Part shown: positions 9,857-58,552 of the stretch, in pieces | Numbering within the stretch: position 1 is the first letter of the stretch | Layout of the letters: every line of letters starts with the position of its first letter | Origin: Opitutia bacterium | Lineage (GTDB): Bacteria > Verrucomicrobiota > Verrucomicrobiia > Opitutales > Opitutaceae | Direction: 5' to 3' | Length of the DNA: 64,000 nucleotides | NCBI GenBank assembly: GCA_016187945.1 | Contig: JACPIT010000009.1 | Span: forward strand, 558,001-622,000 | Translations under genes and position numbers: made by a program | The notes under the pieces: generated by a model | Database searches by the model: none | Told to the model about the DNA's origin: nothing | Seen by the model: the letters and a program-made list of their open reading frames with translations, nothing else

Positions 9857-10486
9857 ATGTTTTTCAAAGGCTTGCTCATCGGATTCGCCATCGCCGTCCC
9901 TGTCGGCCCGATCGGCTTTCTGTGCCTGCGACGCACCCTCGTCTACGGCCGCCTCACGGGCTTCGTCTCCGGGCTCGGCGCGGCCACGGCCGACGCGCTC
10001 TACGGACTCGTCGCCGCGCTCGGCCTCACGGCGATTTCGTCGTTCCTCATCCGCATGGAGTCGTGGCTGCAATTTTTCGGCGGCCTCTTCCTCGTCGTCC
10101 TCGGCCTGAAAACCGCGCTGGCCAAGGCGCCGCCGAAACACACCAGCGAAGCCGCGCCGCCGCGGACGCGCTCGTGGCAAGCCGCCTACCTCTCCACGCT
10201 CGCACTCACGCTCACGAGTCCGGCCACGATCATCGCTTTCGTCGCGATCTTCGCCGGCGTCGGTTTGGGCGTCTCGACCAGCGGCGCGCTGCACGCGCTC
10301 GAGTTGGTCGCCGGAGTTTTCACCGGCTCGGCCGCGTGGTGGCTGCTGCTCAGCCTCGGTGCCGGCGCGCTCCGCGACCGCCTGCACGCGCACACGCTGC
10401 ACTACCTGCACGTCACCTCGGGCCTCGGCATCATGGCCCTCGGTCTCTGGCAAGGCGTCCTGCTCGTCTCGAAGTGGCTCCAGTAG
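9857..10486 (+). CDS. LysE/RhtB-family amino-acid exporter-like protein
   Basis: A 209-residue membrane protein with about six hydrophobic helices. It opens with MFFKGLLIGFAIAVPVGPIG, the LysE-family start in which the AxPVGP turn is conserved. Family members export amino acids or homoserine lactone-like compounds; the substrate here is unknown. The ATG at 9857 is preferred over an upstream in-frame ATG because the family signature begins there. The next gene follows after a REP. Confidence 0.8.
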   Translation: MFFKGLLIGFAIAVPVGPIGFLCLRRTLVYGRLTGFVSGLGAATADALYGLVAALGLTAISSFLIRMESWLQFFGGLFLVVLGLKTALAKAPPKHTSEAAPPRTRSWQAAYLSTLALTLTSPATIIAFVAIFAGVGLGVSTSGALHALELVAGVFTGSAAWWLLLSLGAGALRDRLHAHTLHYLHVTSGLGIMALGLWQGVLLVSKWLQ

Positions 10487-10494
10487 CGCCGTGC

Positions 10495-10571
10495 TGTAGG
10501 AGCGGCTTCATGCCGCGATCCGAACGCGGCGCGCGCAACGCAACCGATCGCGGCGTAAAACCGCCCCGACA
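10495..10571. repeat. REP-like palindrome, 'GTAGGAGCGGCTT' family
   Basis: Arms TGTAGGAGCGGCTTCATGCC and the imperfect complement ending GTAAAACCGCCCCGACA, directly behind the LysE-like gene. Confidence 0.75.
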
Positions 10572-10664
10572 ATTTCCGCGAACCGAAGCACGGCGCGCTC
10601 CGCCTCCACACTCGCGCCGCTGCTCTTGTCAACGCGTGCGGTTGCGTGCATACGGTTGCGCGCC

Positions 10665-42726: not shown

Positions 42727-44034
42727 TTACACCCGTTTCAACACCTCGCGCGACTGGAGTTCCGCGGCGGCGGGAGCGGTGAGCTGCTTCGCGCCCTTGG
42801 CACCCAGCTCCTCGAACTTGCGCGCGCCGGGCAGCAGCGTCTGCTCGAAGGAGCCGACGGCGGCGTTGTAGGCCTTGCTCGCGGAGTCGAGGCCGCGGCC
42901 GACTTTGTCGAGGTTGTCGGCGAAGTTGGAAATCCGGTCGTAGAGCGTGCGGCCGAGCGCGGCTATTTCTTCGGCGTTCTTCGAGACCGACTCCTGGCGC
43001 CAGCCGTAGGCCGTGGCCTTGAGGAGCGCGATGAGCGTCGCAGGGGTGGCGAGCAGAACTTTCTTCGCGATGGCGCGATCGATGAGCGTCGCGTCGGCCT
43101 GCAGCGCGCCGGAGAGGAATTGGTCGCCGGGCAGGAAGAGCACGACGAACTCGGGCGAGGGCTGGAACTGCTCCCAGTAATTCTTCGCGCCGAGTGCGTC
43201 GATGTGGTTGCGCACTTTCGCAGCGTGCTCGGCGAGTTTCGCGGCGCGCACCGTCTCGTCGGAGGCGCTGGCGGCTTCGCGGTAGGCGTCGTTCGGCGCC
43301 TTGGCGTCGACGACGATCTGCTGGCCGCCGGGCAGGCGGACGACGAGATCGGCGCGGAAGCGGCCGGTGGCGTCGCTGGCGCTCTGTTGTTCGACGAAGT
43401 CGCAGTAGGCGGTCATACCCGACATCTCGACGACGCGGCGGAGCTGCAGTTCGCCCCAAGTGCCGGCGGTCGTGGTCGAGCGGAGCGCGGTGGAAAGTTT
43501 CGCGGCCTCGGCTTGGAGCTGCGCCTGCGAGGTGGTGAGCGACTTGAGTTGCTCGGAGAGCGCGCCGTAGGCGCTGGCGCGGGCTTTTTCGATCTCGCCG
43601 ATCTTGGCGTCGACTTTTTCGAGCGACTCCTTGAGCGGCTTCACGAGCGAGTCGATCGCCTGCTGGCGCTTGTCGAGTTCGCTGGCGGACTGCTGCTGGA
43701 GTTTGCCGAAGGACTCTCCGGCGAGCTTCAGAAACTCGTTGGTGTTCCGGCTGAGCGCGTCGGCGGAGAGCGCAGTGAACTCGCTTTTCAGCCGTTCGTG
43801 CGCGTTGGTCAGAGCGGAGATTTTTTCGGCCGATGCCGCACGTTCCGCTGCGAGTTCATTTTCGATTTTCGATTTTCGATTTTCGGTTTCTTCGAGGCGC
43901 GCGCGCGCGGTGGCGAGGTCGGCTTCGAGTAAGCGCGCGCGCTCCGCGATGGCGGCGGCGCGCGAGTGGGCGATGAACCAGCCGAGTCCACCGGCGAGGC
44001 TCGCGGCGACGATCGCGATGAGAATTTCGGTCAC
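42727..44034 (-). CDS. rmuC: DNA recombination protein RmuC
   Basis: A 435-residue RmuC homologue: an N-terminal membrane anchor (ILIAIVAASLAGGLGWFIA), a long coiled coil (residues 30-190), then the nuclease-like core (GTWGELQLRRVVEMSGM, VVDAKAPNDAY, FLPGDQFLSGAL). It limits inversions at short inverted repeats in E. coli, which is notable in this palindrome-rich region. GTG 44034 is chosen as the anchor begins there. Four ATTTTCG heptamers lie in the coiled-coil part of the gene. Confidence 0.9.
   Translation of the reverse strand: MTEILIAIVAASLAGGLGWFIAHSRAAAIAERARLLEADLATARARLEETENRKSKIENELAAERAASAEKISALTNAHERLKSEFTALSADALSRNTNEFLKLAGESFGKLQQQSASELDKRQQAIDSLVKPLKESLEKVDAKIGEIEKARASAYGALSEQLKSLTTSQAQLQAEAAKLSTALRSTTTAGTWGELQLRRVVEMSGMTAYCDFVEQQSASDATGRFRADLVVRLPGGQQIVVDAKAPNDAYREAASASDETVRAAKLAEHAAKVRNHIDALGAKNYWEQFQPSPEFVVLFLPGDQFLSGALQADATLIDRAIAKKVLLATPATLIALLKATAYGWRQESVSKNAEEIAALGRTLYDRISNFADNLDKVGRGLDSASKAYNAAVGSFEQTLLPGARKFEELGAKGAKQLTAPAAAELQSREVLKRV
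43858..43885. repeat. Perfect ATTTTCG heptamer repeat (4 units) inside rmuC
   Basis: Four identical 7-bp units, AT-rich in a GC-rich gene. On the coding strand they give RKSKIEN-type residues in the coiled coil. A gain or loss of one unit would shift the frame. Confidence 0.8.
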
Positions 44035-44183
44035 GCGCGGAGTGAAACCGTGATGCGCGGCGCGGGCAAGCGCCGGTGTGGCGGCGGGGAAAGGTGGCAC
44101 GCGTCGACTCGCTGGAGGCAAGCAAGCCCTGTGCGCCTTCGGCGCGTCAGCGCGCGCGGAGGTCTGCCGTGCGGCGAGGGTGT

Positions 44184-44235: not shown

Positions 44236-45510
44236 TTACTTCCCGAACGGGTTGGCCGAGTTGGTCGGCTCCTTGGCCGGGAGATAGATGGTGAAGCGCG
44301 TGCCTTCGCCGAGTTTCGTCTTCACGTGGATGAGGCCGTTGTGGTGGCGGACGAGGCGCGTGACGATCGCGAGTCCGAGGCCGGTGCCGGTCTGGGCCTT
44401 GGTCGTGAAATACGGCTCGAAGATGCGCGAGAGCACGTCGTGCGGAATGCCCGGGCCTTGATCGAGCACGGAGAGCGCGACGAGCGGCGTCTGGTTGGCG
44501 AAGGACTCGAGGTTGATGAAACGTTCGTCGGGCGTGTCGCGGAAATGCTCGATCGGCAGCGTCTCCTCGTAACGCTCGGCGGCGATCCACACCGTCTGCG
44601 GACGCTCGCAGCTCTGGAAGGCGTTCACGGTGAGGTTGAGGAGAATCTGGATCAACTCGGTGCCGCCGATCTGCGCGGCGGCGTCGCGGTCGAGGTGCTT
44701 CGCGGCGAGCTTGCCGCCGCGGAGGCTTGGATGGTTGCGCATCAACGTGTGGACGTCGTCGATGACCTGGTTGACGGAGACCTCGGGCGACTGCGCGCTG
44801 CGTTTGTTCACGAAGCGCAGGTAGCGGCGCGTGATCGCGGCGCAGGTGTTGACCTGTTTCGCAAGCAGGTTCACGTCGTCGCGCACGCCTTGGAGGTCGG
44901 CGCCGTAGAGCGAGCCGACGCTGTCGAGTTTGTGGCGGAGCAGCTCGACGTAGCCGGTGATGACGGTGAGCGGGTTGTTGATGTCGTGCAATGCGCCGGC
45001 ATAGATCTCGGTCGTGGTGCGCGCCATTTCTTCCTTCACGGAGGCGTCGTTGAGTTGCTCGCTCAACGCCTTCAAGCGCTCGGAGGTGGACGAGACGGTT
45101 TCGGAAATGCGGCGCAGGTGCAGGGCGCGCGTGACCGCTTCGCGAATCGTGGAGAGATCGAACGGCTTGCTCAGGTAATCGCAGGCGCCGAGGCGCAGCG
45201 CCTGGCGCGCGGTCTCGATCGTCTCGTAGGCGGTGAGCATGATGACTTCGATGTGCGGATCGATGGCCTTCAGGCCGCGGAGCACGTCGATGCCGGACTT
45301 GCCCGCCATGCGGATGTCGAGGATGGCGAGCTGCACGGCATTGTTGCGCGCGAACTCGAGCGCCTTGTCGCCGTTGTCGACAGCTTGGACGTTGAAGTCC
45401 TGCTTGAACACCATGCGCAACGAGTGGCGCGGGCCCTCTTCGTCGTCGACGATGAGGAGCGTCGGCAGCGTGACAGTCGCAGTGGGCGCAGTGGCGAGAA
45501 CGGTGGTCAT
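44236..45510 (-). CDS. Receiver-histidine kinase protein (REC at the N-terminus)
   Basis: A soluble 424-residue protein. The receiver domain (1-125) has VDDEE, Asp65 in AILDIRMAG and Lys115 in SKPFD. The kinase part has H-box GALHDINNPLTVI (His175), N-box LNLTVNAFQS, DQGPGIP and GTGLGLAIV, so it looks catalytically complete. With no sensor domain it is likely an intermediate in a multi-step phosphorelay, perhaps with the membrane kinases upstream on the same strand. ATG 45510 is preferred over 45519. Confidence 0.86.
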   Translation of the reverse strand: MTTVLATAPTATVTLPTLLIVDDEEGPRHSLRMVFKQDFNVQAVDNGDKALEFARNNAVQLAILDIRMAGKSGIDVLRGLKAIDPHIEVIMLTAYETIETARQALRLGACDYLSKPFDLSTIREAVTRALHLRRISETVSSTSERLKALSEQLNDASVKEEMARTTTEIYAGALHDINNPLTVITGYVELLRHKLDSVGSLYGADLQGVRDDVNLLAKQVNTCAAITRRYLRFVNKRSAQSPEVSVNQVIDDVHTLMRNHPSLRGGKLAAKHLDRDAAAQIGGTELIQILLNLTVNAFQSCERPQTVWIAAERYEETLPIEHFRDTPDERFINLESFANQTPLVALSVLDQGPGIPHDVLSRIFEPYFTTKAQTGTGLGLAIVTRLVRHHNGLIHVKTKLGEGTRFTIYLPAKEPTNSANPFGK

Positions 45511-45640: not shown

Positions 45641-46513
45641 TCACCCAAGCTCGCCCAGCAACCAATCGCGCGCGGCCGAGTGGTCCGGGGGCGTCCAACC
45701 GCGCTGTCGCGCCAGCGTCGCGGCAGCGTCCTCGAAGGCGCCGGCGGCGGCGCGAAGCGCCCGGCTCAGCGTCGCACGGTCGGCGCCGGTGGCAAAGGCA
45801 CTCTGCGGCAGGCGCTCCGGCGCGAGCCACGATTCGGCGCGACGGGCTTCGGGGCGCACGGCGCGATCGTGGTCGCGGGCCTCTTCTTCGAGCAGGCGCC
45901 AGAGCTGCTCGACGAGCGTGAGATGGAAATGGCGTTGGGCGGCGCGCAATTCGCCGCGCGCGATTTTCTTGGCGGTCCAGACCGCGGCGGCCCAGAACGC
46001 GGCGCAGACTCCGCGAAATTCGCGCTCGTCCAACCGCGGCCAGGGCAGCGTCGCCCCGAGGCGCGCGTAGCGCCGCTCCCATGCCGCGCCGCCCTTGACG
46101 ACGCGCCAGCCGGGGCAGGCGACGATCTTGAGATTGCGCACGCCGAATTTCAGCGGCGGCGGCCAGAGCGAGGCCAGGCCGGGCGCGCGGAGCGCGGCGA
46201 AAGCGATGCGCAGCTCGACCGCGCGCAAGATCACGAAGTCCGCCTCCACGCCGCCGGGGAAGACAAGCGTCAGCTTGTCGGCGCCGCCGAAGACGCGTTG
46301 CGAGTTCACGACCCACGTCTCGCCGAGTCCGTGCAACGCGGCGGGATCGCGGTAGAGCGCGGGACGGGTCGAGATCAGTTGAAAATCGTAGTCGGACCAC
46401 CGGTCGGGCGTCGCGCCCGGCTGCACGCGCGAGCCGATTTGCACGAGCGCCGAAATATCCGCGCGGCTCGCGGCCCACGCGGAAATGCGCGCCATCACGG
46501 GGTCGTCGCTCAT
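45641..46513 (-). CDS. Aminoglycoside 6-adenylyltransferase-family protein
   Basis: A 290-residue protein of the AadE/AadK nucleotidyltransferase family. The active-site pattern is GSRVQPGATPDRWSDYDFQL, with the acidic pair in SDYDF and a third acid in EADFVIL. Chromosomal members in environmental bacteria are not necessarily resistance determinants; antibiotic modification is possible but unproven. Confidence 0.78.
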   Translation of the reverse strand: MSDDPVMARISAWAASRADISALVQIGSRVQPGATPDRWSDYDFQLISTRPALYRDPAALHGLGETWVVNSQRVFGGADKLTLVFPGGVEADFVILRAVELRIAFAALRAPGLASLWPPPLKFGVRNLKIVACPGWRVVKGGAAWERRYARLGATLPWPRLDEREFRGVCAAFWAAAVWTAKKIARGELRAAQRHFHLTLVEQLWRLLEEEARDHDRAVRPEARRAESWLAPERLPQSAFATGADRATLSRALRAAAGAFEDAAATLARQRGWTPPDHSAARDWLLGELG

Positions 46514-46653: not shown

Positions 46654-48531
46654 TCAGAGCGTGACACTCGAGCGGTCCGCCTTCGGGGACTCGTCGCCGT
46701 TGCCGTTCGGACGCGCGGGCGCGAGCGTGGCGAAGGGGTGCGTCGTGTGCGAGGGGCGGGAACGCAGGGCGATCTGCACCTCGGCGCCGCTGAGGCCCTG
46801 GCCGCCCTGGAGCGATCCGTGGTGCCAGCGGATGATTTCGCGAGCGAGGAAGACGCGAAGCAGCGGATGTGCGGGCATCGGGCCCTTGCTCGTCTCGACG
46901 AAGCCTTCGAGATAGAGATTCTTGCCGGAAAGGACGATCAAGCCGGTCTCGTGCTCGCCCTCGCCGCGGCGTTTGACGGCGACGTTGACCGGGCCGTCGG
47001 CGGCGTCGCGATTGCGGACGACGGCGTCGAAGATCGATTGCAGCGCGAAGCGGAGCATCGTCTCGTTCGCGTGCAGGGCGGGCGACATCTCGCCGGAGCT
47101 GACGCGGAGCACGCCGTGAAGTTCGAGGCTGCGGACGACTTCGCCGAGGTCGACGCGGCGGACGTCGCCGACCATGAACTCCTGCATCATGTGCAGGACG
47201 CGCGAGAGGCCCTTGAGTTTCTCGGCGTCGCGCTCGAGTTGGGCATTGAACTCGGCGAGCAGTTCCGGCGCGGAGCCGCTCTGCTGGGCGAGCTGGAGAA
47301 AAGTAGTGAGCGTGACGAGCGGCCCGCCGAGTTCGTGCGAGAGCGTGAGGCCAAACTCGCGGCAATACTTGAGGCGCTCGCGTTCGGCGGCGGCGGTGCG
47401 GTTGGCAAGTTCGGGGCCGGCGTCTTCCCACTGCGCCCAAACGCCGCCGGTCTCGGCGATCGGGCCGGCTTCGGCGCGGAAGCGGACGGTCGGACTCGGG
47501 TCGAGGCGGATCGTGCGGCCGGTGCGGAGGACTTCGCCGGCGAGCGCGCGAATCTCGGGTGGCAGCGAGATGTCCGAAGGCGCGCCGGCGGCGAGGATGC
47601 GCGCGCCGGAGAGGTATTTGGCGCGGAGTTTTTCCTGGTAAGCGGCGTCGGCGAGCGCGCGGAGGCGGCTGGCTTTTTCGAGGCAGCGTTCGAGCAGACG
47701 GCCGAGTTCGAGGGCGCGCGAGCGATCGGCGGCGTTGTAGGAACGGCCGTCGGCGCGCGGACCGTAGGCGGCCCAGCCGGCGAGGCGGCCCGACTCGAAG
47801 AGTGGCACGAGCAGGCGCGCGCTCCACGATTGCATCTGCTGGCGGATGTGGCTCTCAGTCGCGGGATCGGAGTTGCCGACCCAGTCGTCGAGATCGATCG
47901 CGCAGGGGAATTCCTCCATGCATTGCGCGATCGGGCTGCCGGCGGCGCAGGTCCAGCCGTAGCGGTCGGAGCGGAACGAATCGCCGTCGAGCAGGAAGAG
48001 CGTGACGCGCGAGGCTTGGAGGAGCGATTGGGCGGCGCGGCGGAATTCCTCGAGCACGCGGTCGCGATCTTCGAGGTGCTCGATCGCGGCCTCCATGAAA
48101 CTGAGATCGTCGACCGCGGAGGTCGGCGCCGATTCGCGCGCGTGCGGCGACGGCGCGCGCGTGCCGCGCGCCTGAAGCGTCTGGATGATCGCGTTTTTCT
48201 CGGCGAGCTCCGCGGCGGTGCGCAGGGTGTCCTTCAGCAGCGTGCGGCTTTCCTCGTAGGTGAGAAAGAAGCGGCCGGCGCCGGCGAGGCGGGATTGCTC
48301 GAAGGGGAGGCTTTGCGCCTGGCCGACGACGATCACGATCACGTCCGGGTGCGTGCCGAGTGCGCTGCGCGGATCGGCGAGGTCTTTGATCCAGACGCGG
48401 GCGCCGACTTGGGAGAGTTCGCGGCGGAGGAGTTCGGGCGACGACGGCGACACTGCCGGATACGGCAGTTGAGCGGACCAGTCCGCAAACAGGCGGGGGT
48501 CAGGCGTCGTGAGGATCAGGATGGCGGACAT
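46654..48531 (-). CDS. Cytoplasmic histidine-kinase-like protein with degenerate ATPase domain
   Basis: A 625-residue protein. The N-terminus resembles a divergent receiver (AILILTTPDPRLF, residues 1-110). A GAF-like region covers about 150-290. A dimerisation helix follows with an H-box-like LTLSHELGGPLVTL (His399). The C-terminal ATPase region lacks recognisable DxGxG and GxGLG motifs, so it may not bind ATP. The start overlaps the upstream kinase gene by 16 bp. A scaffold or phosphotransfer partner is the likely role (inference). Confidence 0.72.
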   Translation of the reverse strand: MSAILILTTPDPRLFADWSAQLPYPAVSPSSPELLRRELSQVGARVWIKDLADPRSALGTHPDVIVIVVGQAQSLPFEQSRLAGAGRFFLTYEESRTLLKDTLRTAAELAEKNAIIQTLQARGTRAPSPHARESAPTSAVDDLSFMEAAIEHLEDRDRVLEEFRRAAQSLLQASRVTLFLLDGDSFRSDRYGWTCAAGSPIAQCMEEFPCAIDLDDWVGNSDPATESHIRQQMQSWSARLLVPLFESGRLAGWAAYGPRADGRSYNAADRSRALELGRLLERCLEKASRLRALADAAYQEKLRAKYLSGARILAAGAPSDISLPPEIRALAGEVLRTGRTIRLDPSPTVRFRAEAGPIAETGGVWAQWEDAGPELANRTAAAERERLKYCREFGLTLSHELGGPLVTLTTFLQLAQQSGSAPELLAEFNAQLERDAEKLKGLSRVLHMMQEFMVGDVRRVDLGEVVRSLELHGVLRVSSGEMSPALHANETMLRFALQSIFDAVVRNRDAADGPVNVAVKRRGEGEHETGLIVLSGKNLYLEGFVETSKGPMPAHPLLRVFLAREIIRWHHGSLQGGQGLSGAEVQIALRSRPSHTTHPFATLAPARPNGNGDESPKADRSSVTL

Positions 48532-50513
48532 GGGAACGTAAGGCGGAAGGTCGCGCCGGGCTGGCCCGTATCGACCAACGCGATGCTCCCGCGATGAGCG
48601 CGCATCATGTTGGCGCTCATCGCGAGGCCAAGCCCGAAACCGTTGATTTTGCCGGAGCTGAACGGTTGGAAGAGCCGCTCGCGCTGTTCGGGAGCGACAC
48701 CGGGACCGTTATCGGCCACATCGAGCATGATCTCGCGGGAGGCCAGCCGCGTGCGGACGGTGACGACACGTTCGCCCGACTGGCCCGCGAGCGCCTGTTG
48801 GGCGTTCACGAGGAGATTGAGGACGATTTGGTTGATGCCGCCGGCATCGGCGCTGATGGGGCGCTCGTCGGCAGTGAGGTCCACGAGGAGTTCGGTGTGC
48901 GCCTCGGCGAATTTCGGACGCATCAGCGTGGTGCACTCCAGCACGATCTCGTTCAGCCGCACGGTGCGCATGATGGGCTTGCGCGGGCTGGAGAGCTTGA
49001 GGAGCTGCTCGGTGAGGCCTTCGATGCGTGCGACCTCCTTTTGAAAAACCTGGGAGAACTCGACGCGAAACTCGGGATCCTGGTGCCGCTCCGGGAGGAG
49101 TTGCGCGAAGGTCTTGAGCGCGACGAGAGGATTGCGGATCTCGTGCGCGAGGCTGGCGCCGAGGAGCCCGGCCGTGGCGACCTGCTCGGTTTCGCGCGCA
49201 CGCTTGACAAGACGAGCGCGCGAGAGCGCCACCTCGATGAGTTCGGACCAGCCGAGGAGGTGCTCGATCTCGGGCCAGAGGAAGGGCATCCGGTCCTCGC
49301 GGCGGCCGAGGCCAATCGCGATCGGCGTCGTGCCGCGCGTGGGCGGACTGAGCACAACCACGCCCAACTGATGCTTGGCGAGAAAGGCGTCGATTTCCTC
49401 GAGGGCGGGAGTGACGCGACGACGCGCGACGCTTTCAGGTGTGACCCAGCGTTCTTCCAACAGAAGCGTGAGCCCGGGACCATCGGTAGCGAGCGACCAC
49501 GGATTGCCCTGCTGGGCCGGGTTATCGGAAGAGCGGATAACCGCTTTGTCAGCGCGGCCCCACTCGCGAAGAATGCGGCAATAGCGCTCGGTCAGGCCGT
49601 CGGGATCGGGCTCCTCACGGCCGGCGGCAAGAATCTCAAGGCGCACCTGATCGGCAACGTCCGCGCGGTCCGAGAAACTCGGCCAGCGGCTACGACGCTC
49701 AAGATACACAATCAGCGAAACAGTCGCGCTTAGGCCGACAATCATCGCGACGCCGGAAGGCAACAGGTCGCCCGCGTATTGGAGCCAGATAAGCATCACC
49801 ACACTGGCACCAACCATGATACCGCCTCGTCGTAGAACGGCCAAGAAGAGACGCCGTGCATCGAGAATCTTCTGGCTGGTGATGCCCCACGCCGTGAGGC
49901 CATAGAAAAACAGCACTGCGATGGGCGCGAATCCGCGAAAATCAGTCAGGCCGAGCATCGGTGCGACCATCGTGAACCCAAGGCCTACCAAGCACGAGAT
50001 GGCACCGCCAATCAGGAAGATTTTGATCTCGACGAGCTGAATGCCCTTCTGCAGCCGCATCTCGCGCACTCCCAAGCCGACAAGGGAAAGATAGGAAACC
50101 ACGAGCCCGGCATTATAGATGATGGCGCCCGCCCCCCAAATGCGAGTCTCGCGCGTGGATTCGCTAGGAATGAACCAATTCGAAACTGCAATCGCTGCCA
50201 GCGTGCTCCCGCCCACAAGCCAGTATTTCCCCTTTGTGATCAACTCGCGCCATTTGCACTCGGGAGAAATGATCGAGTGCGCCAGCCACCACAACAACCA
50301 GGGGAAGAAAGCGCCAATCGCGGAGATCGCCTTGATCCATGGGACGGGATTGGGGATGTGGAATCGATTGAGCGTCCACAGGAGAGCCAACCAAAGCGCT
50401 ATCCATAGAGACAACAGCGTGAAGGCCTGGTTGATCTGCCGACGTGGATTGGCAAAAAATACGCTCGCAGTCGCACAGACCACAACGACCAGAGTGATGC
50501 TCTGCATGTTCAT
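48516..50513 (-). CDS. Polytopic membrane histidine kinase (PrsK-like architecture), copy 1
   Basis: A 665-residue sensor kinase. The N-terminal 270 residues contain about seven or eight membrane helices (FPWLLWWLAHS is a landmark). A GAF-like region (300-440) follows. The kinase core has H-box LLGASLAHEIRNPLVALKTF (His457), N-box NQIVLNLLVNAQ, DNGPGVAPEQ and GFGLGLAMS. The start forms an ATGA overlap with the ketosynthase gene stop. Architecture and the NPVPW and FPWLLWW motifs match the kinase at 54598. The multi-helix domain could sense a membrane-soluble ligand. Confidence 0.86.
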   Translation of the reverse strand: MNMQSITLVVVVCATASVFFANPRRQINQAFTLLSLWIALWLALLWTLNRFHIPNPVPWIKAISAIGAFFPWLLWWLAHSIISPECKWRELITKGKYWLVGGSTLAAIAVSNWFIPSESTRETRIWGAGAIIYNAGLVVSYLSLVGLGVREMRLQKGIQLVEIKIFLIGGAISCLVGLGFTMVAPMLGLTDFRGFAPIAVLFFYGLTAWGITSQKILDARRLFLAVLRRGGIMVGASVVMLIWLQYAGDLLPSGVAMIVGLSATVSLIVYLERRSRWPSFSDRADVADQVRLEILAAGREEPDPDGLTERYCRILREWGRADKAVIRSSDNPAQQGNPWSLATDGPGLTLLLEERWVTPESVARRRVTPALEEIDAFLAKHQLGVVVLSPPTRGTTPIAIGLGRREDRMPFLWPEIEHLLGWSELIEVALSRARLVKRARETEQVATAGLLGASLAHEIRNPLVALKTFAQLLPERHQDPEFRVEFSQVFQKEVARIEGLTEQLLKLSSPRKPIMRTVRLNEIVLECTTLMRPKFAEAHTELLVDLTADERPISADAGGINQIVLNLLVNAQQALAGQSGERVVTVRTRLASREIMLDVADNGPGVAPEQRERLFQPFSSGKINGFGLGLAMSANMMRAHRGSIALVDTGQPGATFRLTFPCPPS

Positions 50514-51712
50514 GCGAGTTCCATCACCATGCTGGCATTATTCCCCGATAGCCCGTGCGAGTTGATGAGCGCCACGTGCGGCTGGATGTGCCGTGCCCGG
50601 TTGGAAAGATTGAGCGGACAATCGGGGTCCGGCGTTTCCCAGTTCACCGTCGGCGGCACGACGCCGGTTCGAAAACTCAGTGCCACGCTTGCTGCTTGGA
50701 TGGCCGCAGCCGCCCCGAGTGGATTTCCAATGGCTCCTTTAAGCGAGGAAGTCGCGATTTCGCAGACGCGCGGCCCAAACACATCGCGGAGACATTGCGC
50801 CTCGATGCGGTCGATGTGTTCGTGGCCCGGTCCCCACGCATTGATGTAGTCGACGGCGGCCGGATTCTGGCGCGCGTTCGCCAGCGCCATGCGCATGCTG
50901 TCGATCATTCCTCCGCCAGACATCTCGGAAGTGTCGTTGGCATACGCGTAACCCGAGACCCAAGCGTAGGCGCGTCGAGGACTCGTTTCGGCCTCCAATA
51001 CCAACACTGCCGCGCCTTCTCCAATCACACCGGTGCTGCGCCAAAGGTCGAATGGGCGACACATCTTTTCCGGCTCGTTCGCGTTCTGGGGCGAGAGCTT
51101 GGTGATCCCAAGTTCCAACATGGGATGGTAGAAAACAGGCGCCTCGGTCCCGGCACAGATAGCGATTTCAGCCTGTCCGGTCGCGATCATTTCGGCGCCG
51201 TGGCCGATCGCATCGAGACCGGCACAACAAGCCGTCTGGATCGCAATCACGCGCGCGGGAACGTCGATCCAATCGGCGATACGCGCTGCCATGTTGATCG
51301 GAGGCGCTTCGTAGACGACGGCCAGGTTAGCGTGCCGCGGTCCTTTGGCCATCACGTCGGTGATCGATTTGTTGACGAGATGAATGTCCATCACCGACGA
51401 ACCGTTAAGGATCACCGGATTCATCCCGGCGAGTTCTTCGCGGGTAAGACCAGCATCCGCCAACGCCAATGCCGCTCCCGCCAGAGCGAACTGTGTCTGA
51501 CGAGGCAGGCGCTTGGTGCTGCCGTCAACTTGGACCCAATCCGCCAGCTTGAAGTCCGGCACCTCGGCGGCGATGAACTCGCCCTTCTCCTCCAAGCGCG
51601 TCACCCGCCGCACGCGGCTGATTGACTCGTTAATGCCGCGGAAAAAATTCTCGCGGCCGATTCCCGCCGGCGTGACCGGCCCGATACCTGTGATTTTAAC
51701 GCGACGTCTCAT
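50510..51712 (-). CDS. Ketosynthase (FabF fold) lacking both catalytic histidines
   Basis: A 400-residue thiolase-fold protein close to FabF in length. The nucleophile is kept (Cys162 in QTACCAGLDAIGHG) and the catalytic-site Lys too (Lys325 in SSLKGAIGN). But the first His position (NAHGTGT in FabF) reads NAWGPGHEHID, placing Trp293 there, and the second (GH) reads GN, giving Asn330. A decarboxylative condensation by the normal mechanism is therefore doubtful; His297/His299 might compensate. It overlaps both neighbours by ATGA junctions. No acyl carrier protein is nearby. Confidence 0.85.
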   Translation of the reverse strand: MRRRVKITGIGPVTPAGIGRENFFRGINESISRVRRVTRLEEKGEFIAAEVPDFKLADWVQVDGSTKRLPRQTQFALAGAALALADAGLTREELAGMNPVILNGSSVMDIHLVNKSITDVMAKGPRHANLAVVYEAPPINMAARIADWIDVPARVIAIQTACCAGLDAIGHGAEMIATGQAEIAICAGTEAPVFYHPMLELGITKLSPQNANEPEKMCRPFDLWRSTGVIGEGAAVLVLEAETSPRRAYAWVSGYAYANDTSEMSGGGMIDSMRMALANARQNPAAVDYINAWGPGHEHIDRIEAQCLRDVFGPRVCEIATSSLKGAIGNPLGAAAAIQAASVALSFRTGVVPPTVNWETPDPDCPLNLSNRARHIQPHVALINSHGLSGNNASMVMELA

Positions 51713-53181
51713 CGGCTTTCGTAACGTCCCGGCGCGATGATGCCGCGCGGGTCGAGCGCGCCCTTCAACGCGCGGTGAATGGGATTTTCCGGCGGCCCCG
51801 GCAGGTCGATGCCGAGGCGATACGGAGGAAAACCGGCCGCGCGGAGCTTGCGCGCGATATGCTGCTCCGCGGCTTTCGCGGCGGCGGCCTGACCGGGCGC
51901 GATGTGGAGCGTGAACACCGTGATCAGGCAATACGCGTTCAGCACGATGTAGGTGCACGCCGCCTCCGGCCACTCCGCGCGGATGATGGCCGCCATGCGC
52001 TCCGCGTCCGCGGCATCAAGCGCGCCGACGCCGTTGCCGTATATCGCACCTTCCTCCGCGCGGTCGGGACTGAATTCGCCGGGCGGCAATGCCAGAGCCT
52101 GCAGGCCGGCGTCCGAAGGCACGCCCCAGGTCAGGCCGAACAACGGCAAAAACGACGCCAGCCGATCCGCCTGATTGCGCAGCCCAATCAGTCGCGCGAA
52201 GCGCTCGAGGCGCGCCGCACCTTGCGCGTCGAAACGGCGCGCCACCGTTCCCGCGGACAGCAGGCGCTTCAGTTCGCGCCAGCAAGCTTGCACCACGCCC
52301 CGGCGGCCGTGCATAGCGCTCAGAGCAACATGATCGACGCTGTCAGGGAAGACCGCGCGCACCTCCTCCGCAGTGACCGCGCGGCCGCGCACTTCCGCAA
52401 GGCGGCTCGTGGCGAGCCGGCCGGTGCGGCCGGGTTCGCCGATGTGCGTCGGCAGCGTGAGCACACCGGTCTCATAACTCTCGCGCAAGAGCGCGAGCAG
52501 CTGCGGCAAAGCGCCGGTGATGACGACAGCCTGCTCCAACTCCTGCCTCCGCCGCAAGCGCACGCGCGCGGCCGTCACCACGCCGTAGTTGGACTGGAAA
52601 AACAGTCGCTCGTGCGCCGGTCCGATGGCGTGGTCACGGGCGGGGTGGAACCATTCGGCATCCGGCCGCAACATCGTGCCGTCGGCCAGCATCAATTCCA
52701 AACCGAACACGATCTGATCGATCGGTCCCGTGTAACCGACACCGCGCTCGAGCGCGCAACCGAGAATGCTGGTCTGCGTGCCCGCCCCTGTGATGTTGAA
52801 AGCGAGATCGGGCGCCTGCTGCTGGAGCCAGCGATGGAGGGCGCCCTGCGTCACGCCCGGTTCGATGCGCACCGACAGCGTGGCGCGATCGAGCGGGCCG
52901 ATCTTGGTCCAGCCACGCAGGTCGACAATCCCGACGTCGTCACGCGCCGGCAGAAGCGAGCCGTAGCCCCAATTGCGGCCGGTGCTGATGACGTTCACCG
53001 GTGTGCCGTCTCGCGCCGCCTCCTGCAGGATGGCTCTCAGCTCCGCTTCGTCTTTCGGGCGCTTGGCCCACAAAACCCGCCGCTGGCTCCGGCACAATGT
53101 GGTCGTGACACCGCCCTGCCAGGCTTCCGGAGCGGAATCTGGTGCCGTCGTGGTCCGACCGTGCGGATCAGGATGCTGCAT
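51709..53181 (-). CDS. VAO/PCMH-type FAD-linked oxidase
   Basis: A 490-residue flavoenzyme. The N-terminal FAD-binding domain shows VISTGRNWGYGS (pyrophosphate loop) and GVTQGALHRWL. The C-terminal domain ends in IIAPGRYESR, like 4-cresol methylhydroxylase and vanillyl-alcohol oxidase relatives, which act on phenols or alcohols. The mode of flavin attachment cannot be judged. The stop overlaps the ketosynthase start (ATGA), so the pair probably act in one pathway. A TGACGTCA palindrome lies 14 bp before its start. Confidence 0.85.
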   Translation of the reverse strand: MQHPDPHGRTTTAPDSAPEAWQGGVTTTLCRSQRRVLWAKRPKDEAELRAILQEAARDGTPVNVISTGRNWGYGSLLPARDDVGIVDLRGWTKIGPLDRATLSVRIEPGVTQGALHRWLQQQAPDLAFNITGAGTQTSILGCALERGVGYTGPIDQIVFGLELMLADGTMLRPDAEWFHPARDHAIGPAHERLFFQSNYGVVTAARVRLRRRQELEQAVVITGALPQLLALLRESYETGVLTLPTHIGEPGRTGRLATSRLAEVRGRAVTAEEVRAVFPDSVDHVALSAMHGRRGVVQACWRELKRLLSAGTVARRFDAQGAARLERFARLIGLRNQADRLASFLPLFGLTWGVPSDAGLQALALPPGEFSPDRAEEGAIYGNGVGALDAADAERMAAIIRAEWPEAACTYIVLNAYCLITVFTLHIAPGQAAAAKAAEQHIARKLRAAGFPPYRLGIDLPGPPENPIHRALKGALDPRGIIAPGRYESR

Positions 53182-53194
53182 TAGGGCGTGCGAG

Positions 53195-53202
53195 TGACGT
53201 CA
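53195..53202. promoter_or_regulatory. TGACGTCA palindrome upstream of the FAD oxidase gene
   Basis: A perfect 8-bp palindrome 14 bp upstream of the ATG. The same octamer is at 54134-54141, upstream of the GrpB gene. A shared operator is possible but unproven. Confidence 0.35.
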
Positions 53203-53250
53203 CTGTGAAATCGCACACGAGACGCGCAAGGTCTAAGTGCGAACGGCCCT

Positions 53251-54084
53251 TCACCGCTGAGATTGTGCCGCCCGGGCCAAGAGCGTCTGCGCGCGTTTCT
53301 GATCCAAAAACCAATCCGCCCAATCAGGCACGCGGGAATGGCGCCACTGCCAGTCATCGATCCAATGCGACTTGTAGAACACGTAGAAAAGCCGGCGCCC
53401 CGGGAAGAAGGCCGCCAACGCAACTTTGGTCGCCTCGTAATCGACACGCAGAACTCCGTCCGCCCGCAGCGCGTCGCGAAAACCCAGCAGCTCAACCAAT
53501 ATCTGGCTTCCTGCCGGATGAACTTGGAGCGCATGTGTGCGGATGGACGCCACGGCTTTCTCGAAAAAATGTCCGCCGCGAACGCCCAGATACCCGTAGC
53601 CAAGCGCGTGCAGCTTCGCCTTGGTTTCGCCAAACGCGGCCGCGAATCGGTCAGCCGGCAATGTCGCCGCCAAATCCACGATCGGTTTCGCCGCAAGCCG
53701 TTCAATCGCCGTGCTCCCGATGTGGTGCACTTCCGCCCGCGCCCCCAAGGTCTCGCGCAACAATTCCGCCTCCCGATCCGCTTCCGTCCGCCAAGCCGGA
53801 TCCGACGCGCAGAGGATTACCGCGGCATTGTGGACGCCGCTCCGAGCGCGGACGTCCCCCCGCCTCTGCCCCTCGACGTCCGCGAGGCTCCGCATGCGCT
53901 CAAGCTGGCGCAACATCAGCGCATGGATCGCGCCCAAGGCCCAGCGATCCATCTTCCCGAGCGAACCGCCCTGCAGCCGCACTTTGGCCAACACGACGAG
54001 TTCGACGGCTTTGGTCCAGAGCGCCACGCACAAGGCGCGCCCTCGTTCGCGCCGCGGTATCGCCGAAGTGGGATGGGATGACAT
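53251..54084 (-). CDS. GrpB/UPF0157 family protein with an N-terminal extension
   Basis: A 277-residue protein. The C-terminal 185 residues match the GrpB nucleotidyltransferase-fold family: HHIGSTAIERLAAKPIVDLA, a metal-site-like pattern, and RVDYEATKVALAAFF. The first 90 residues are not part of the usual family, and I do not recognise them. It is first in the minus-strand run leading to the oxidase, ketosynthase and kinases, with 69 bp to the oxidase. Function unknown. Confidence 0.72.
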   Translation of the reverse strand: MSSHPTSAIPRRERGRALCVALWTKAVELVVLAKVRLQGGSLGKMDRWALGAIHALMLRQLERMRSLADVEGQRRGDVRARSGVHNAAVILCASDPAWRTEADREAELLRETLGARAEVHHIGSTAIERLAAKPIVDLAATLPADRFAAAFGETKAKLHALGYGYLGVRGGHFFEKAVASIRTHALQVHPAGSQILVELLGFRDALRADGVLRVDYEATKVALAAFFPGRRLFYVFYKSHWIDDWQWRHSRVPDWADWFLDQKRAQTLLARAAQSQR

Positions 54085-54597: not shown

Positions 54598-56631
54598 ATG
54601 AATCCCTACCTCGCCTGTCTGGTCGTCGTAGTCAGCATCGGCGCGAGCGTCGTATGGTCTGATCGACGCAATCTCGTCAGCCAGGCGCTCGCGCTCTCGG
54701 CATTCTGCGCTGCCGTCTGGATTTTTCTGTTGTGGGCGATCCGGGCCCCTTGGATCGGCAATCCGGTGCCTTGGCTGCGCGCGGCTGTGGCGGTCGGCGA
54801 TATTTTCCCGTGGCTGCTGTGGTGGACCGGCCGGTGCGCCATTCAACCCCGCGGCTCGTGGCGCGATTTGTTTTCGGAGGGACGATATTGGATGACCGCT
54901 TCGCTGCTGCTCGCATCCCTCGCCCTTTCTCCGTGGTTTCTCCCGCCCGAAGCCAGTCCGTCACATCACGTGTTCGGTCCCGGCTACGTGCCACACCAAA
55001 TCGCCCACCTCCTCCTCTTCCTCACCCTGCTGGTTCACGCGGTCTTGGAGATATCGCGTCTCATGGGATTCGCGCGCTCGATGGCCAAGCTTTTCTTCAT
55101 CGGCGGCGGCGTTACCGCGCTGTTGTCGGCGGCCCTGATGGTTTCGAAACACTTTGGCTACCCCCAACTGGTTCGCGGTGCACCCGTGGTGGCCTCAATT
55201 TTCTATGTCATCGGCGCATGGGCCGTCTCGAGCCAGCAACTCCTCGATGCGCGCCACCACCTGCTCACGGTGTTGCGTCGTTCGATGGCGTTGATCGGAG
55301 CGGCGTTCGTCATCACTACGTTGATGGAGCGTCCCTCGATCCTGCCGCGCGAGCTGCACGTTCTCATTTCCGCGACGAGCGGCGTCGTCCTCGCGCTCGT
55401 TTTCGATTCGCTGTCCGGCTTCGCTCTCGATCGCAGTCTCGCCAAGGGCTCGCTGGCGGCGGCGCGGGCGCTGCAACGATTCGCGACGAACATCGCCGCA
55501 TTGCCGGCCGCGGAGTTGCGGGAGAGCTCCGCGCAACGGCTGGCAGAAACGCTTTCCTGCCGCGAGGTCGCTGTGTTCTGGCGGAGCGCCGCGGATCGGC
55601 CACTCCATTTGGTCTCCGCTCATCACACGCCGCCCGACTGCCCCGTGACGCTGGGCGACGACCATGCGCTGCTGCGGCACAGCATGCAGGAGCGCGCGCC
55701 GTGGTGGCTCGCGCGCCGGTTGCCGGCTGTCGATCACAGCCTGGCCGGGTTCGCGCTTTGCGTGCCGGTGATCGAGCGGGGAAATGTCCTCCTGCTCGTC
55801 CTCACCGGGCACAAGAGCAGTGCGATGGGGTTCACCCAATCCGAGTTCTCCGCGCTCCAGGCCTGGGCGCTCTCCTGCCACCACACGCTCACGACGCGCG
55901 CGCTGATCGAACGCGAGCACGCCCAGCAGCAGCTCGTCTACGCCGGCAAACTCGCCGCCGGCATCGCGCATAATCTCCGCAATCCGCTCGCCATCGTGCG
56001 CGCCTACGTCGAAGCCGACTCGGCCATCGAACGTTCCCACCTCACCGAGCTCCACGATCTCGCCCTCACGGAAACCTCCCGCATCCAATCCACGATCGAC
56101 AGCCTCACCGCCCTCTCGCGCGGCGAGCGTTTCGCGCTCGTGTCGCACGATCTCGACGCGCTTGTGCGCCGCGCCGTCGAGCTGAACGCGTCCTACCTCG
56201 CCGAATGCCGCGCGACGGTGGAAATCGTTTCCGCTCCCCGGCACCCACGCGCACTCGTCGAACCATGGCAGCTCACCACCGCGCTGACCAATCTCCTGCG
56301 CAACTCCGCCGAGGAAGTCGCGCGCGAAGGCGGCGGCGAGATTCGCCTCGAGCTCCAACCCGTCGCGTCCGCCTGGGTCGCGATTCGCCTGCGCGACAGC
56401 GGCCGCGGTTTGCCCCCGCACATCCGCGACGCCGTGTTCTCGCGCGACCTCTTCGCCCAAACGACGAAAGCCACCGCCTCGTCGACCCGCCGCACGGGCT
56501 TCGGCATCGGGCTGCATTCGACGATGCTGATCGTCACCATCGGCCATGGCGGACAATTCGAGTATCGCGACGGCGCGTTCGTCATCACGCTGCCCGCCGC
56601 GCCGGCGGCGTCAGCTCCAGGCGGGGAATAG
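54598..56631 (+). CDS. Polytopic membrane histidine kinase (PrsK-like architecture), copy 2
   Basis: A 677-residue kinase with the same architecture as the protein at 48516-50513: seven to eight N-terminal helices (with NPVPWLRA and FPWLLWWTGR), GAF-like region, then H-box AAGIAHNLRNPLAIVRAY (His458), N-box TTALTNLLRNSAEE, DSGRGLPP and a GFGIGLHS ATP lid. It is transcribed away from the first module. Its 3' end overlaps the convergent REC-kinase gene by 21 bp. Probably the receptor of a second branch of the same system. Confidence 0.86.
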   Translation: MNPYLACLVVVVSIGASVVWSDRRNLVSQALALSAFCAAVWIFLLWAIRAPWIGNPVPWLRAAVAVGDIFPWLLWWTGRCAIQPRGSWRDLFSEGRYWMTASLLLASLALSPWFLPPEASPSHHVFGPGYVPHQIAHLLLFLTLLVHAVLEISRLMGFARSMAKLFFIGGGVTALLSAALMVSKHFGYPQLVRGAPVVASIFYVIGAWAVSSQQLLDARHHLLTVLRRSMALIGAAFVITTLMERPSILPRELHVLISATSGVVLALVFDSLSGFALDRSLAKGSLAAARALQRFATNIAALPAAELRESSAQRLAETLSCREVAVFWRSAADRPLHLVSAHHTPPDCPVTLGDDHALLRHSMQERAPWWLARRLPAVDHSLAGFALCVPVIERGNVLLLVLTGHKSSAMGFTQSEFSALQAWALSCHHTLTTRALIEREHAQQQLVYAGKLAAGIAHNLRNPLAIVRAYVEADSAIERSHLTELHDLALTETSRIQSTIDSLTALSRGERFALVSHDLDALVRRAVELNASYLAECRATVEIVSAPRHPRALVEPWQLTTALTNLLRNSAEEVAREGGGEIRLELQPVASAWVAIRLRDSGRGLPPHIRDAVFSRDLFAQTTKATASSTRRTGFGIGLHSTMLIVTIGHGGQFEYRDGAFVITLPAAPAASAPGGE

Positions 56632-57828
56632 CAACTCCACGACCGCGCGCCCGCCCGCCTGTCGGCACAACGCGGGAGCGGCAAACCGCGCCGAGAGGTG
56701 CGCGAGCGCGTAGAGCCGCCCGGCTTCCGGCGGTCCCGCCAGCGCCGCGGTCAACGTCGCCGCATCGAGCGCCGCGCCTTCGCACTGGCAATGAAACCGC
56801 ACATAGCGCTCCGCGCGCATCGCCTCGCGGTTCAACACCAGCAACCCGTCGGCCGCGCCGAGAATCCGCTCCGCCGCGGCGCGATCGATCAACTCAACCG
56901 CCACCCTCGCCTCTCCGCTTCCGCTGCGACGCTCGAGCAGGAAATTCACGACATTGCGCAGCACGTTCATCAGCGCCGTCGACGAAACCGGCAGCACCAG
57001 CTCGGGCTCCGGCGGCGCGATGCGCAAGCCGCCGCGCAAACGGATGTCGGCGACGAAAATCTTCGCGAGCGCCTGCAGCGTCACGCCGACCTGCGCGCGC
57101 TGATTCTCGTTGGTCAAGTCGCCCGCCTCGGTCGTCATCTGGCGCACCATCGCCGAAATGCGCGCCAGCGCGCCGGCGTTCGCGTCGGTGGTGAGCCGGA
57201 GCTCGTCGACGAGCCGCGGCCCGAGCGCGGCATCCGGCGCCTCCGCCGCACGCTCCGCGAGCGATTCGAGCACGGCGCCCGTCACGCCGAGCGCCGTGAG
57301 CTCATTGGCGAGGCTGTGGAAGAAACCGCGATACAAGTCGGCGACCGTGCGCGAAATTTCCACTGTGCGCGTCTGCTCCTCCAGGTGACGCCGCGCCTCC
57401 TGGCCGATCGTGGCGTCGCGACTCGCCGTGCGGTTTCGCCGCGTCTCCTCCGCGCAATCGCGCACGGCCTGCACGATCGCCGCGCGCGGCGACGCCTTCA
57501 AAATCCGGCGCCGCGCCCGCACCTCCAGCGCGCTTTCCAGCACGCCGGCCGAGTCGTCGCCGGTGTAGAGCAGCACCTCGAGACACGGGTCGATCTCGTG
57601 GAGCCCGCGCGCGATGTCGAAGCCGTCTTCGCGCGAGCGGCGCAGGTGCACGTCGAGGATCGCGACATCGAAGCGCGCGCCGCGCACCGCTTCGAGCGCT
57701 TCCGCGGGCGCCGAGCAAAAGTGCACGCGCGCCACGCCGTGCAGCGTCGCGTTGAGCACGTGGCGCTGCGCCGCGTCGTCGTCGACCGCGAGCACTTCGA
57801 GCCACGGACTGCGCGTCGCCTCGCTCAT
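56611..57828 (-). CDS. Receiver plus degenerate kinase-like protein
   Basis: A 405-residue protein. The N-terminal receiver has VDDD, Asp59 in AILDVHLRR and Lys111 (ILKASPR). A helical dimerisation-like part follows with His171 in GFFHSLANELTALG, in the H-box position. The C-terminal domain keeps an N-box-like LRNVVNFLLE but lacks DxGxG and a lid, so kinase activity is doubtful. It starts 1 bp after the response-regulator stop and is co-directional with it. Confidence 0.75.
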   Translation of the reverse strand: MSEATRSPWLEVLAVDDDAAQRHVLNATLHGVARVHFCSAPAEALEAVRGARFDVAILDVHLRRSREDGFDIARGLHEIDPCLEVLLYTGDDSAGVLESALEVRARRRILKASPRAAIVQAVRDCAEETRRNRTASRDATIGQEARRHLEEQTRTVEISRTVADLYRGFFHSLANELTALGVTGAVLESLAERAAEAPDAALGPRLVDELRLTTDANAGALARISAMVRQMTTEAGDLTNENQRAQVGVTLQALAKIFVADIRLRGGLRIAPPEPELVLPVSSTALMNVLRNVVNFLLERRSGSGEARVAVELIDRAAAERILGAADGLLVLNREAMRAERYVRFHCQCEGAALDAATLTAALAGPPEAGRLYALAHLSARFAAPALCRQAGGRAVVELLFPAWS

Positions 57829-57829
57829 C

Positions 57830-58552
57830 TCAATGCAGCGCGAGGCGCCAGCCGACTTTCGCTTCCGTGGTCACCGTGCGCTCGAAATCGCCGCCGTGCT
57901 CCACGAACAGCCGCCGCAGGCGCGAGACGTAGACGTTGACCGAGTTCGAATGCGTGTTCGCGTCGGGGCCCCAGACATCGCGCAGCAACTGCTCGCGCAG
58001 CACGAGCGCCTGCGGCGCATGCGCGAACGCCGCGAGGACGCCGTATTCCTTCGGCCCGAGCTTTTCGACGTGGCCGTCGGGGAAACGGCAGCGCAGATCG
58101 GATGTGACGCTCGCGCCGGCGAACGCGAACTCCGCGCGCACTTCCACGCCGTCGATGCGCGCGGAAAAATCCGCCACCGGCGCGCCGTCGCTCCTCGCCA
58201 GCGCGCGCGAGAGGCGCGCCCGGATTTCGTGGACATCCCACGGCTTCAGCAAAACCTCCGCGGGCTCGAGTTCCCAAATCTGCGGCACCAACGCGTGCAC
58301 GATCGTCGTCGCCACCACCGGGCAGCGGCGGACCGGACCAGTCCAGTCGCGCAGCACGTCGAGCCCGCGTCGTGCGCCGCTGTAATCCACGTCGAGGATC
58401 GCGAGCGAGAACATCTCGCGGCGATGGCGGCGCTCGCCTTCGTCGAGGCTCTCCGCGGCGACAGTCTCCCACTCCGGAAACAACGCCGGCAGCATCTCCC
58501 GCAGCAAGCGCCGCAGATCGCGCGATTCCTCGACGATCAACACGCGTTTCAT
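57830..58552 (-). CDS. OmpR-type response regulator
   Basis: A 240-residue regulator. The receiver domain (MKRVLIVEES, Asp54 in AILDVDYSG, LLKPWD) has Glu-Glu in place of the usual Asp pair at the acid pocket. The C-terminal winged helix shows LGPKEYGVLAAFAHAPQ and HSNSVNVYVSRLRRLF, then RTVTTEAKVGWRL. It is the only DNA-binding output in this signalling cluster. ATG 58552 is preferred over 58582. Confidence 0.86.
   Translation of the reverse strand: MKRVLIVEESRDLRRLLREMLPALFPEWETVAAESLDEGERRHRREMFSLAILDVDYSGARRGLDVLRDWTGPVRRCPVVATTIVHALVPQIWELEPAEVLLKPWDVHEIRARLSRALARSDGAPVADFSARIDGVEVRAEFAFAGASVTSDLRCRFPDGHVEKLGPKEYGVLAAFAHAPQALVLREQLLRDVWGPDANTHSNSVNVYVSRLRRLFVEHGGDFERTVTTEAKVGWRLALH

Follow-up and report, generated by a model that had tools for sequence, protein, structure and literature searches.

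A 64,000-nucleotide stretch of the genome of an Opitutia bacterium (contig JACPIT010000009.1, positions 558,001 to 622,000; hereafter the window) carries on its minus strand an operon in which the gene KS, encoding a FabF-related protein with an altered active site, adjoins mHK, the gene of a polytopic histidine kinase. This operon is real, and its coupling of enzyme and kinase genes is not incidental. Comparison with relatives points to a conserved, family-restricted enzyme-sensor cassette that lies in an exchangeable island and likely has a signalling role. We lean, by a narrow measure, towards the view that the operon pairs a synthase with the sensor of an acyl-derived signal and would work as the Phc quorum-sensing system does. 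The genes of the unit in the window are as follows.

44236..45510, minus strand: RRHK, receiver, HisKA and HATPase domains without a DNA-binding domain; PhcR-like architecture
45641..46513, minus strand: AdT, nucleotidyltransferase of the streptomycin-adenylyltransferase Pfam family (PF04439, 52.9 bits)
46654..48531, minus strand: dHK, receiver-like domain, GAF-like region, DHp-like helices and a degenerate ATP-binding domain
48516..50513, minus strand: mHK, polytopic histidine kinase, about 8 membrane helices followed by HisKA and HATPase
50510..51712, minus strand: KS, FabF-related, Cys kept and both catalytic His replaced (ketoacyl-synt, 91.7 bits)
51709..53181, minus strand: OX, FAD-binding oxidase resembling vanillyl-alcohol oxidase and p-cresol methylhydroxylase; accessory in the window lineage

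The preliminary description of this DNA had listed five minus-strand genes (GrpB-like, OX, KS, mHK and dHK) with two ATGA junctions and one 16-bp overlap. All five genes were found in place, and the junctions read from the DNA were the same (KS/mHK and OX/KS, each ATGA, 4 nt; mHK/dHK, 16 nt). The unit extends beyond the end given there to include AdT and RRHK, both of the conserved kind.

A KS alignment (A1, 21 orthologues) served to scan collected genome contigs, which gave 71 named loci (L numbers below; genomes have G numbers). The scan used two peptide patterns and left relatives without both uncounted, and the 71 loci are no census. Moreover, all KS-operon counts come from stop-to-stop frames and profile searches because a simple gene caller missed genes, including KS in several loci, and placed a plus-strand open reading frame over the GrpB-like gene. 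The titles of the loci name Opitutaceae, Opitutia, Opitutae, Lacunisphaera, Cephaloticoccus, Opitutus and Verrucomicrobia(-ota), with one Candidatus Synoicihabitans and one Streptomyces (L136). In 66 of the 71 loci the gene directly after KS, in the same orientation, is mHK, with KS 44-77% identical to that of the window. As for the other five, the contigs of L134, L135 and L137 end inside KS, L132 is broken, and L136 holds no orthologue, its protein being an ordinary FabF of 33% identity. In L132 (Candidatus Synoicihabitans palmerolidicus, around 8858-10927), KS and RRHK are fragmented, and mHK, dHK and AdT were not found in 20.9 kb. The preliminary description had held that the coupling would be incidental if homologues of the oxidase and ketosynthase consistently occurred in a fatty-acid, pigment or polyketide cluster without the kinases; among the 71 loci no unbroken KS with room on its contig lacks mHK, and the coupling proved to be conserved.

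The conserved unit comprises, in its usual order, RRHK, KS, mHK, dHK and AdT. AdT is inverted and lies ahead of KS in L071, L072, L073, L075, L076, L111 and L135, and RRHK stands at the far end of the unit in the window and L067. The contiguity of KS and mHK survives AdT inversion (in the first six of those loci), RRHK displacement (window, L067) and OX insertion. A candidate mHK start overlaps the KS stop at 64 of 67 junctions, the window included, 19 of them being of the 4-nt kind, and a candidate dHK start overlaps the mHK stop at 60 of 62; this test is lenient, as any in-frame ATG or GTG counts as a candidate start and the starts are not mapped ones.

Two genome samples, 100 from the family and 387 from the phylum, were also searched, with a part of the candidates scored per genome (3-4 each in the phylum sample). 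In the family sample, KS (identity of at least 44%) was found in 31 genomes, dHK in 34 and AdT in 33. KS occurs without dHK only in G028, where the contig ends; dHK occurs without KS in G081 and G087, whose short contigs end nearby, and in G004 and G034; and AdT occurs without KS in G081, G087, G031 (at a contig end) and G092. In G087, dHK and AdT are separated by a gene (L157:2228-3145) whose 305-residue product resembles none of the operon families. Downstream of the KS-less kinase trio of G004 (L154, 3945-9310), an SDR-like gene lies within 0.2 kb, ahead of genes that, from a reading of their sequences, resemble those of exopolysaccharide synthesis. Among the 387 phylum genomes, KS orthologues occur in 16 and dHK in 18, all in one family, and a gap in score separates KS from FabF, with those 16 genomes at 552 bits or more and the next best match at 358 bits or less.

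The KS protein is a member of the FabF (KAS II) sequence family with which it shares the active-site Cys and Lys, and solved FabF structures align along its whole length. However, it scores only 247.9 bits against the fabF model, far under the cut-off of 493.75, and is 28-36% identical to the FabF-like proteins of the family. The comparison of active-site columns covered 66 full-length orthologues, with that of the window among them, and excluded five sequences that are incomplete or broken; residue numbers are those of E. coli FabF. The nucleophile Cys and the Lys at position 335 are present in 66/66. In contrast with FabF, the position of His303 is occupied by Trp in 65 and by Cys in one (L095), and that of His340 by Asn in 47, Thr in 10, Ser in 8 and Ala in one (L107). 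A His four residues past the Trp is found in 66/66; it is absent in L136, the ordinary FabF, which has both catalytic His. Thus, the KS orthologues do not have the Cys-His-His triad of an elongating FabF, and they do show the retained Cys and lost catalytic His that characterize non-elongating, KS0-like transacylases. Because both catalytic histidines are lost and Cys and Lys are kept, KS is probably an acyl transferase or acyl binder rather than a condensing enzyme, and the ordinary ketosynthase of the preliminary description is not what these residues suggest.

According to excerpts of PMC8456789, the KS0 domains of trans-AT polyketide synthases, such as the KS3 of HtmA1 (Cys-Asn-His), are non-elongating transacylases. 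KS resembles these domains, as far as those excerpts describe them, in keeping Cys and losing a catalytic His; it differs from them in standing alone and in having lost both His, whereas they are assembly-line domains with carrier proteins. The domain scan showed no carrier protein among the operon genes, in line with the preliminary description.

The other two enzymes differ in their constancy. AdT retains S40, D41, D43 and D92 in 25/25 sequences (alignment A4), residues that we presume to be catalytic, and G27 and S28 are nearly invariant. OX, which the preliminary description treated as a core part, occurs in the window and in only five of the 71 named loci (L067-L070, L134), where it stands directly before KS; with this distribution we rejected OX-KS as a conserved pair. 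OX matches FAD_binding_4 at 69.7 bits, and its best PDB match (9gov, E 3.9e-21) runs along the FAD domain; against vanillyl-alcohol oxidase and p-cresol methylhydroxylase the best stretches fall within residues 30-232, with a weak match in a short C-terminal segment. In the trees of KS, the mHK kinase part and dHK, the window groups with L067-L070 in a single clade, which the membrane-domain and RRHK trees do not show.

Among the kinases, mHK carries HATPase_c (69 bits) and HisKA (40 bits) domains, with H457, N566, N570, D601/G603/G605 and G625/G627/G629 invariant in alignment A2. Its membrane part is modelled as about 8 long helices (residues 1-300, pLDDT 88), a count taken from the model and not from a topology program. 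The structure-based search of this multi-helix domain that the preliminary description proposed was run with Foldseek, in which no PDB entry reached E 0.001; the matches listed have E of at least 0.02 and TM-scores of at most 0.53, and a fold like that of G-protein-coupled receptors is not claimed. The family HisKA_7TM (PF16927) weakly matches three of 38 mHK members (best E 5.8e-7), the window mHK not among them. RRHK contains Response_reg (93 bits), HATPase_c (72.7 bits) and HisKA (33.7 bits) domains, and its invariant residues in alignment A5 are those of the receiver Asp, the phospho-His and the ATP boxes (D65, K115, H175, D350, G352, G354). In dHK, D50 of the receiver-like domain and H399-E400 of the DHp-like region are invariant (alignments A3/A7), and by eye the usual D-x-G-x-G box is not seen in the alignment. 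The AlphaFold2 model of dHK (pLDDT 83, pTM 0.42) finds histidine kinases and phytochromes as its best Foldseek matches, and at E 0.1 GAF is detected in 20 and HisKA in 8 of 26 members.

The nearest known architecture is that of the Phc quorum-sensing operon of the Ralstonia solanacearum complex. In the excerpts of PMC8578825, its products are a synthase of the methyltransferase kind, a sensor kinase, a protein combining receiver and kinase, and a receiver protein; neither of the latter two has a DNA-binding domain. The window operon is like phcB-phcS-phcR-phcQ, so described, in placing the gene of a candidate signal synthase beside a sensor kinase and a receiver-kinase protein without a DNA-binding domain: mHK, with its polytopic N-terminus, HisKA and HATPase, is a sensor histidine kinase encoded with the candidate synthase, and RRHK has the domain composition of PhcR, which does not imply descent from it. 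In addition to RRHK, receiver domains occur in RR2, a further protein of the window, and, as a receiver-like domain, in dHK (compare PhcQ, a receiver-only regulator that, like the LysR regulator PhcA, belongs to Phc-type quorum sensing). The likeness is one of gene architecture on paper, and it has differences, because the candidate synthase is KS instead of a methyltransferase, with no methyltransferase domain detected in the window operon by domain scan, and because dHK and AdT are additional. Excerpts of PMC5462968 state that the PhcB and PhcS trees sort strains by signal type and that the PhcR tree does not.

The preliminary description had compared the operon with CqsA/CqsS and LqsA/LqsS. 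These systems are similar in that synthase and sensor kinase are encoded together, and LqsR, according to excerpts of PMC3376566, is a receiver with no known output domain. However, no PLP (pyridoxal phosphate)-dependent, aminotransferase-like synthase domain of the CqsA/LqsA type was present in the ten genes scanned around the operon, and Phc is the closer counterpart. A ketosynthase-type enzyme that makes a quorum signal is known in PpyS (excerpts of PMC4578411), although the model of PpyS presented there is based on OleA, with a C-H-N triad, and the partner PluR is a LuxR-like receptor, not a kinase. Among the literature matches listed, in their titles and abstract openings, there is no account of a ketosynthase-kinase pairing or of quorum sensing in this bacterial group.

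The place of the operon in the genome provides further evidence, as it lies between two boundary genes.

42727..44100, minus strand: RmuC gene, left island boundary (RmuC, 334.6 bits)
58733..59734, minus strand: ABC7, ABC transporter ATPase gene, right island boundary (ABC_tran, 94.8 bits; 74% to the ABC7 of L106)

The RmuC-ABC7 locus is a variable island. The 100 family genomes were searched for both boundary genes, gaps being distances between matches; between the two, the KS gene set either occurs as a whole or is missing as a whole, except in G004, G034 and the remnant of G092. RmuC and ABC7 lie on one contig in 27 KS-less genomes: 81-532 bases apart in nine (G016, G022, G026, G038, G044, G047, G062, G091, G099), 1.5-1.7 kb apart in four (G010, G056, G098 and the remnant G092), 9-12 kb apart in eight (G009, G013, G033, G040, G041, G060, G074, G086) and farther apart in six. 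In G092 (L163), the 1.5 kb between RmuC and ABC7 contain pieces of RRHK and AdT and no KS, mHK or dHK, as in a deletion remnant. Of the nine short-gap loci, three were retrieved: the gene caller placed RmuC and ABC7 side by side in L172 and L174 and found only ABC7 in L173, where it missed RmuC, as it perhaps missed a kinase in L168.

Sequence was retrieved for seven of the eight 9-12 kb gaps, all but that of G074. Six of the seven (L165, L166, L167, L168, L170, L171) contain RRHK, polytopic kinases (one or two as called) and a fusion of an acyltransferase with a methyltransferase, the LuxD type. This fusion joins Acyl_transf_2 (PF02273, 76-101 bits) to a methyltransferase domain, so that a methyltransferase domain, missing from the window operon, does occur in these islands of its relatives; the L165 protein reaches 104 bits with the LuxD model, whose cut-off is 420, and its match to PDB 1tht has E 2.9e-23. 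As called, the fusion gene and the kinase gene that follows it share 4 nt in five of the six islands, and a FadL-type porin gene (PF03349, 164-205 bits) is present in four. The seventh gap, L169 (G041), has in one row, at 1731-8986, genes for an ICMT-type methyltransferase, a KS of FabF-like sequence, two polytopic kinases and FadL; RRHK is present as well. HisKA_7TM is above its cut-off in kinases of L165, L167 and L169. The preliminary proposal of quorum-sensing-like logic gains from the LuxD-type fusion, polytopic kinases and frequent FadL at the same place in relatives; the signal molecule itself is still putative.

In the 100 family genomes, 31 have KS and 19 have a LuxD-type gene (E 1e-60 to that of L165), and none has both. 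The two types occur within single genera: KS in G000 and G096 and the LuxD type in G040 and G074 of genus g1, the window's own; one genome of each type in g4; and, in g38 of the phylum sample, KS in G037, G071, G093 and G351 and the LuxD type, without a KS match, in G430. The two-domain LuxD-type gene is also present in G144, from another family of the same order. For fourteen of the 19 LuxD-type genes the distance to RmuC or ABC7 is at most about 5.5 kb, and plasmid records contained no relative of the LuxD-like protein at E 1e-20. The window RRHK is 90% identical to that of L165, an island of the LuxD type, and 86% to that of L067, compared with 28% to those of L106, L070 and L073, which are of the KS type. 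Therefore, the KS cassette of the window sits next to a relay of the LuxD-type islands, as though one cassette had been substituted for the other in this lineage.

Covariation was assessed at 55 loci as the partial correlation of KS distances given RRHK, with parts of the kinases as controls, which supersedes an earlier distance test on 35 loci with RmuC and ABC7 as controls. The partial r of KS was 0.54 with the mHK membrane part and 0.32-0.41 with the other mHK and dHK parts; the membrane part ranked first in 293 of 300 subsamples; and in a 45-locus core the values were 0.51 and 0.10-0.14, respectively. Supported clades conflicting with the dHK tree number 19/34 for KS, 10/30 for the membrane part, 6/29 for RRHK and 1/28 for the mHK kinase plus linker, and conflicts with the combined backbone of mHK kinase and dHK number 12/25 for KS, 13/24 for AdT, 20/27 for RmuC and 4/12 for ABC7. 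Covariation and tree conflict together fit recombination around the KS gene and are no proof of ligand matching. Two arguments lost force on these data: co-evolution of KS and sensor as proof of a ligand pair was downgraded, the signal peaking beside the gene junction, and cassette exchange argued from tree conflict was weakened, the flanking RmuC conflicting more.

Under the synthase-plus-sensor reading, KS would load an acyl chain from acyl carrier protein (ACP) or coenzyme A (CoA) onto its conserved Cys and, without the two His for decarboxylative condensation, would pass it to an acceptor. AdT, together with the FAD oxidase in the window lineage, would modify the product, and the hydrophobic product would reach the membrane domain of mHK and shift its balance of kinase and phosphatase activity. 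Phosphate would then move to the RRHK receiver (Asp65) and perhaps to dHK; we regard both as putative relays because neither has a DNA-binding domain. What is read from sequence is which genes make up the unit and how they are conserved, the motifs that mark mHK and RRHK as kinases, the changed active site of KS, and the presence in relatives of another enzyme with polytopic kinases at the same place. A broader proposal, which we put forward tentatively and at somewhat less than even confidence, is an Opitutaceae-type quorum-sensing island that exchanges whole synthase/receptor cassettes, each with its own polytopic kinase, feeding a PhcR-like relay.

Several results weigh against the synthase-plus-sensor reading. 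With both catalytic histidines gone, KS may make nothing, and of the genes scanned in the KS-type operon none encodes a methyltransferase, FadL or an exporter. The KS of L169 has the Cys and both His; therefore, a KS at this locus need not be histidine-less. G004 and G034 carry RRHK-mHK-dHK without KS and AdT, so that the kinases can act without these enzymes. The test of the absence of overlap between KS and LuxD-type genomes (hypergeometric chance 3.5e-4) ignores relatedness, and five of the 19 LuxD-type genes lie outside the pattern, two (G016, G075) far from RmuC and ABC7 on the same contig and three (G024, G050, G068) on contigs with neither. Within mHK, the covariation with KS is 0.62 for the first 55 columns and 0.22-0.26 for the rest of the membrane domain, and because the peak columns adjoin the KS gene, linked recombination explains part of the covariation. 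Moreover, as RmuC conflicts with the backbone more than KS does, the incongruence is not special to the cassette.

Some of these points agree with another explanation, in which KS is a cytosolic acyl sensor whose Cys is acylated by acyl-ACP or acyl-CoA and which, by contact with mHK, reports the status of fatty acids or membrane lipids to the relay, so that nothing leaves the cell. We consider it unlikely, though deserving of serious attention: the invariant Cys and Lys with both catalytic His lost, the fixed partnership suggested by the candidate overlaps at 64 of 67 KS-mHK junctions, and the covariation peak in the first 55 mHK columns are all in its favour, whereas the kinase-adjacent slot of relatives holds plainly catalytic kinds (the acyltransferase-methyltransferase fusion, and a C-H-H KS behind an ICMT gene) and the conserved AdT aspartates point to chemistry. 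It is distinctly improbable, in our judgement, that the enzymes are a regulated output, with the kinases sensing an outside cue and KS, AdT and the oxidase making a lipid or secondary metabolite that is not sensed. The kinase trio of G004 and G034 and the lack of a conserved DNA-binding output gene in the unit accord with such an output; however, the enzyme and sensor genes look translationally coupled, as judged from candidate starts, instead of standing behind a separate regulated promoter, and a carrier protein was not seen in the operon. Shared descent alone, with KS and the kinases functionally unrelated, might be proposed because the flanking RmuC and ABC7 are syntenic too, but we give it very little credence, as KS and mHK remain contiguous through inversion, displacement and insertion of their neighbours and the set comes and goes as a block between RmuC and ABC7, barring G004, G034 and G092.

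The remaining genes of the window island are listed below.

53251-54084/54123, minus strand: GrpB-like gene (Pfam GrpB, 98.8 bits)
54598..56631, plus strand: mHK2, second polytopic kinase of the island (HATPase_c, HisKA), a distant mHK paralogue
56611..57828, minus strand: RR2, receiver domain (Response_reg, 51 bits) and a region similar to RRHK
57830..58552, minus strand: OmpR-type response regulator, candidate output (Trans_reg_C, 55 bits; Response_reg, 28.4, below the cut-off of 30.2)

The GrpB-like gene was rejected as an operon part, a GrpB match (E 1e-10 or better) being found solely in L067 among the 71 named loci. The segment 54598-58552, between the KS operon and ABC7, holds mHK2, RR2 and the OmpR-type regulator, with mHK2 and RR2 overlapping tail to tail; these three were likewise rejected as members of the conserved set, having no fixed link to the KS operon in other named loci. 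mHK2 is 27% identical to mHK over 670 residues, and RR2 is 23-30% identical to the RRHKs, mostly in the first 190 residues. Beside the island, at 59939-63385, lies the gene of a large hybrid histidine kinase with a C-terminal receiver.

These results point to a concrete candidate for cell-cell signalling in a family of environmental bacteria. They also offer a testable case of a ketosynthase-fold protein without condensing residues that is tied to a sensor kinase. If the proposal of an exchanging island is correct, the exchanged synthases would be a histidine-less KS transacylase, a LuxD-like fusion (often with FadL) or a KS with a carboxyl methyltransferase, and the family would have a Phc-like system with interchangeable acyl-signal chemistries. 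The natural series at this one locus (KS, LuxD-like fusion, KS plus ICMT), which is found even within one genus, may allow a change of synthase and receptor to be compared against a constant relay.

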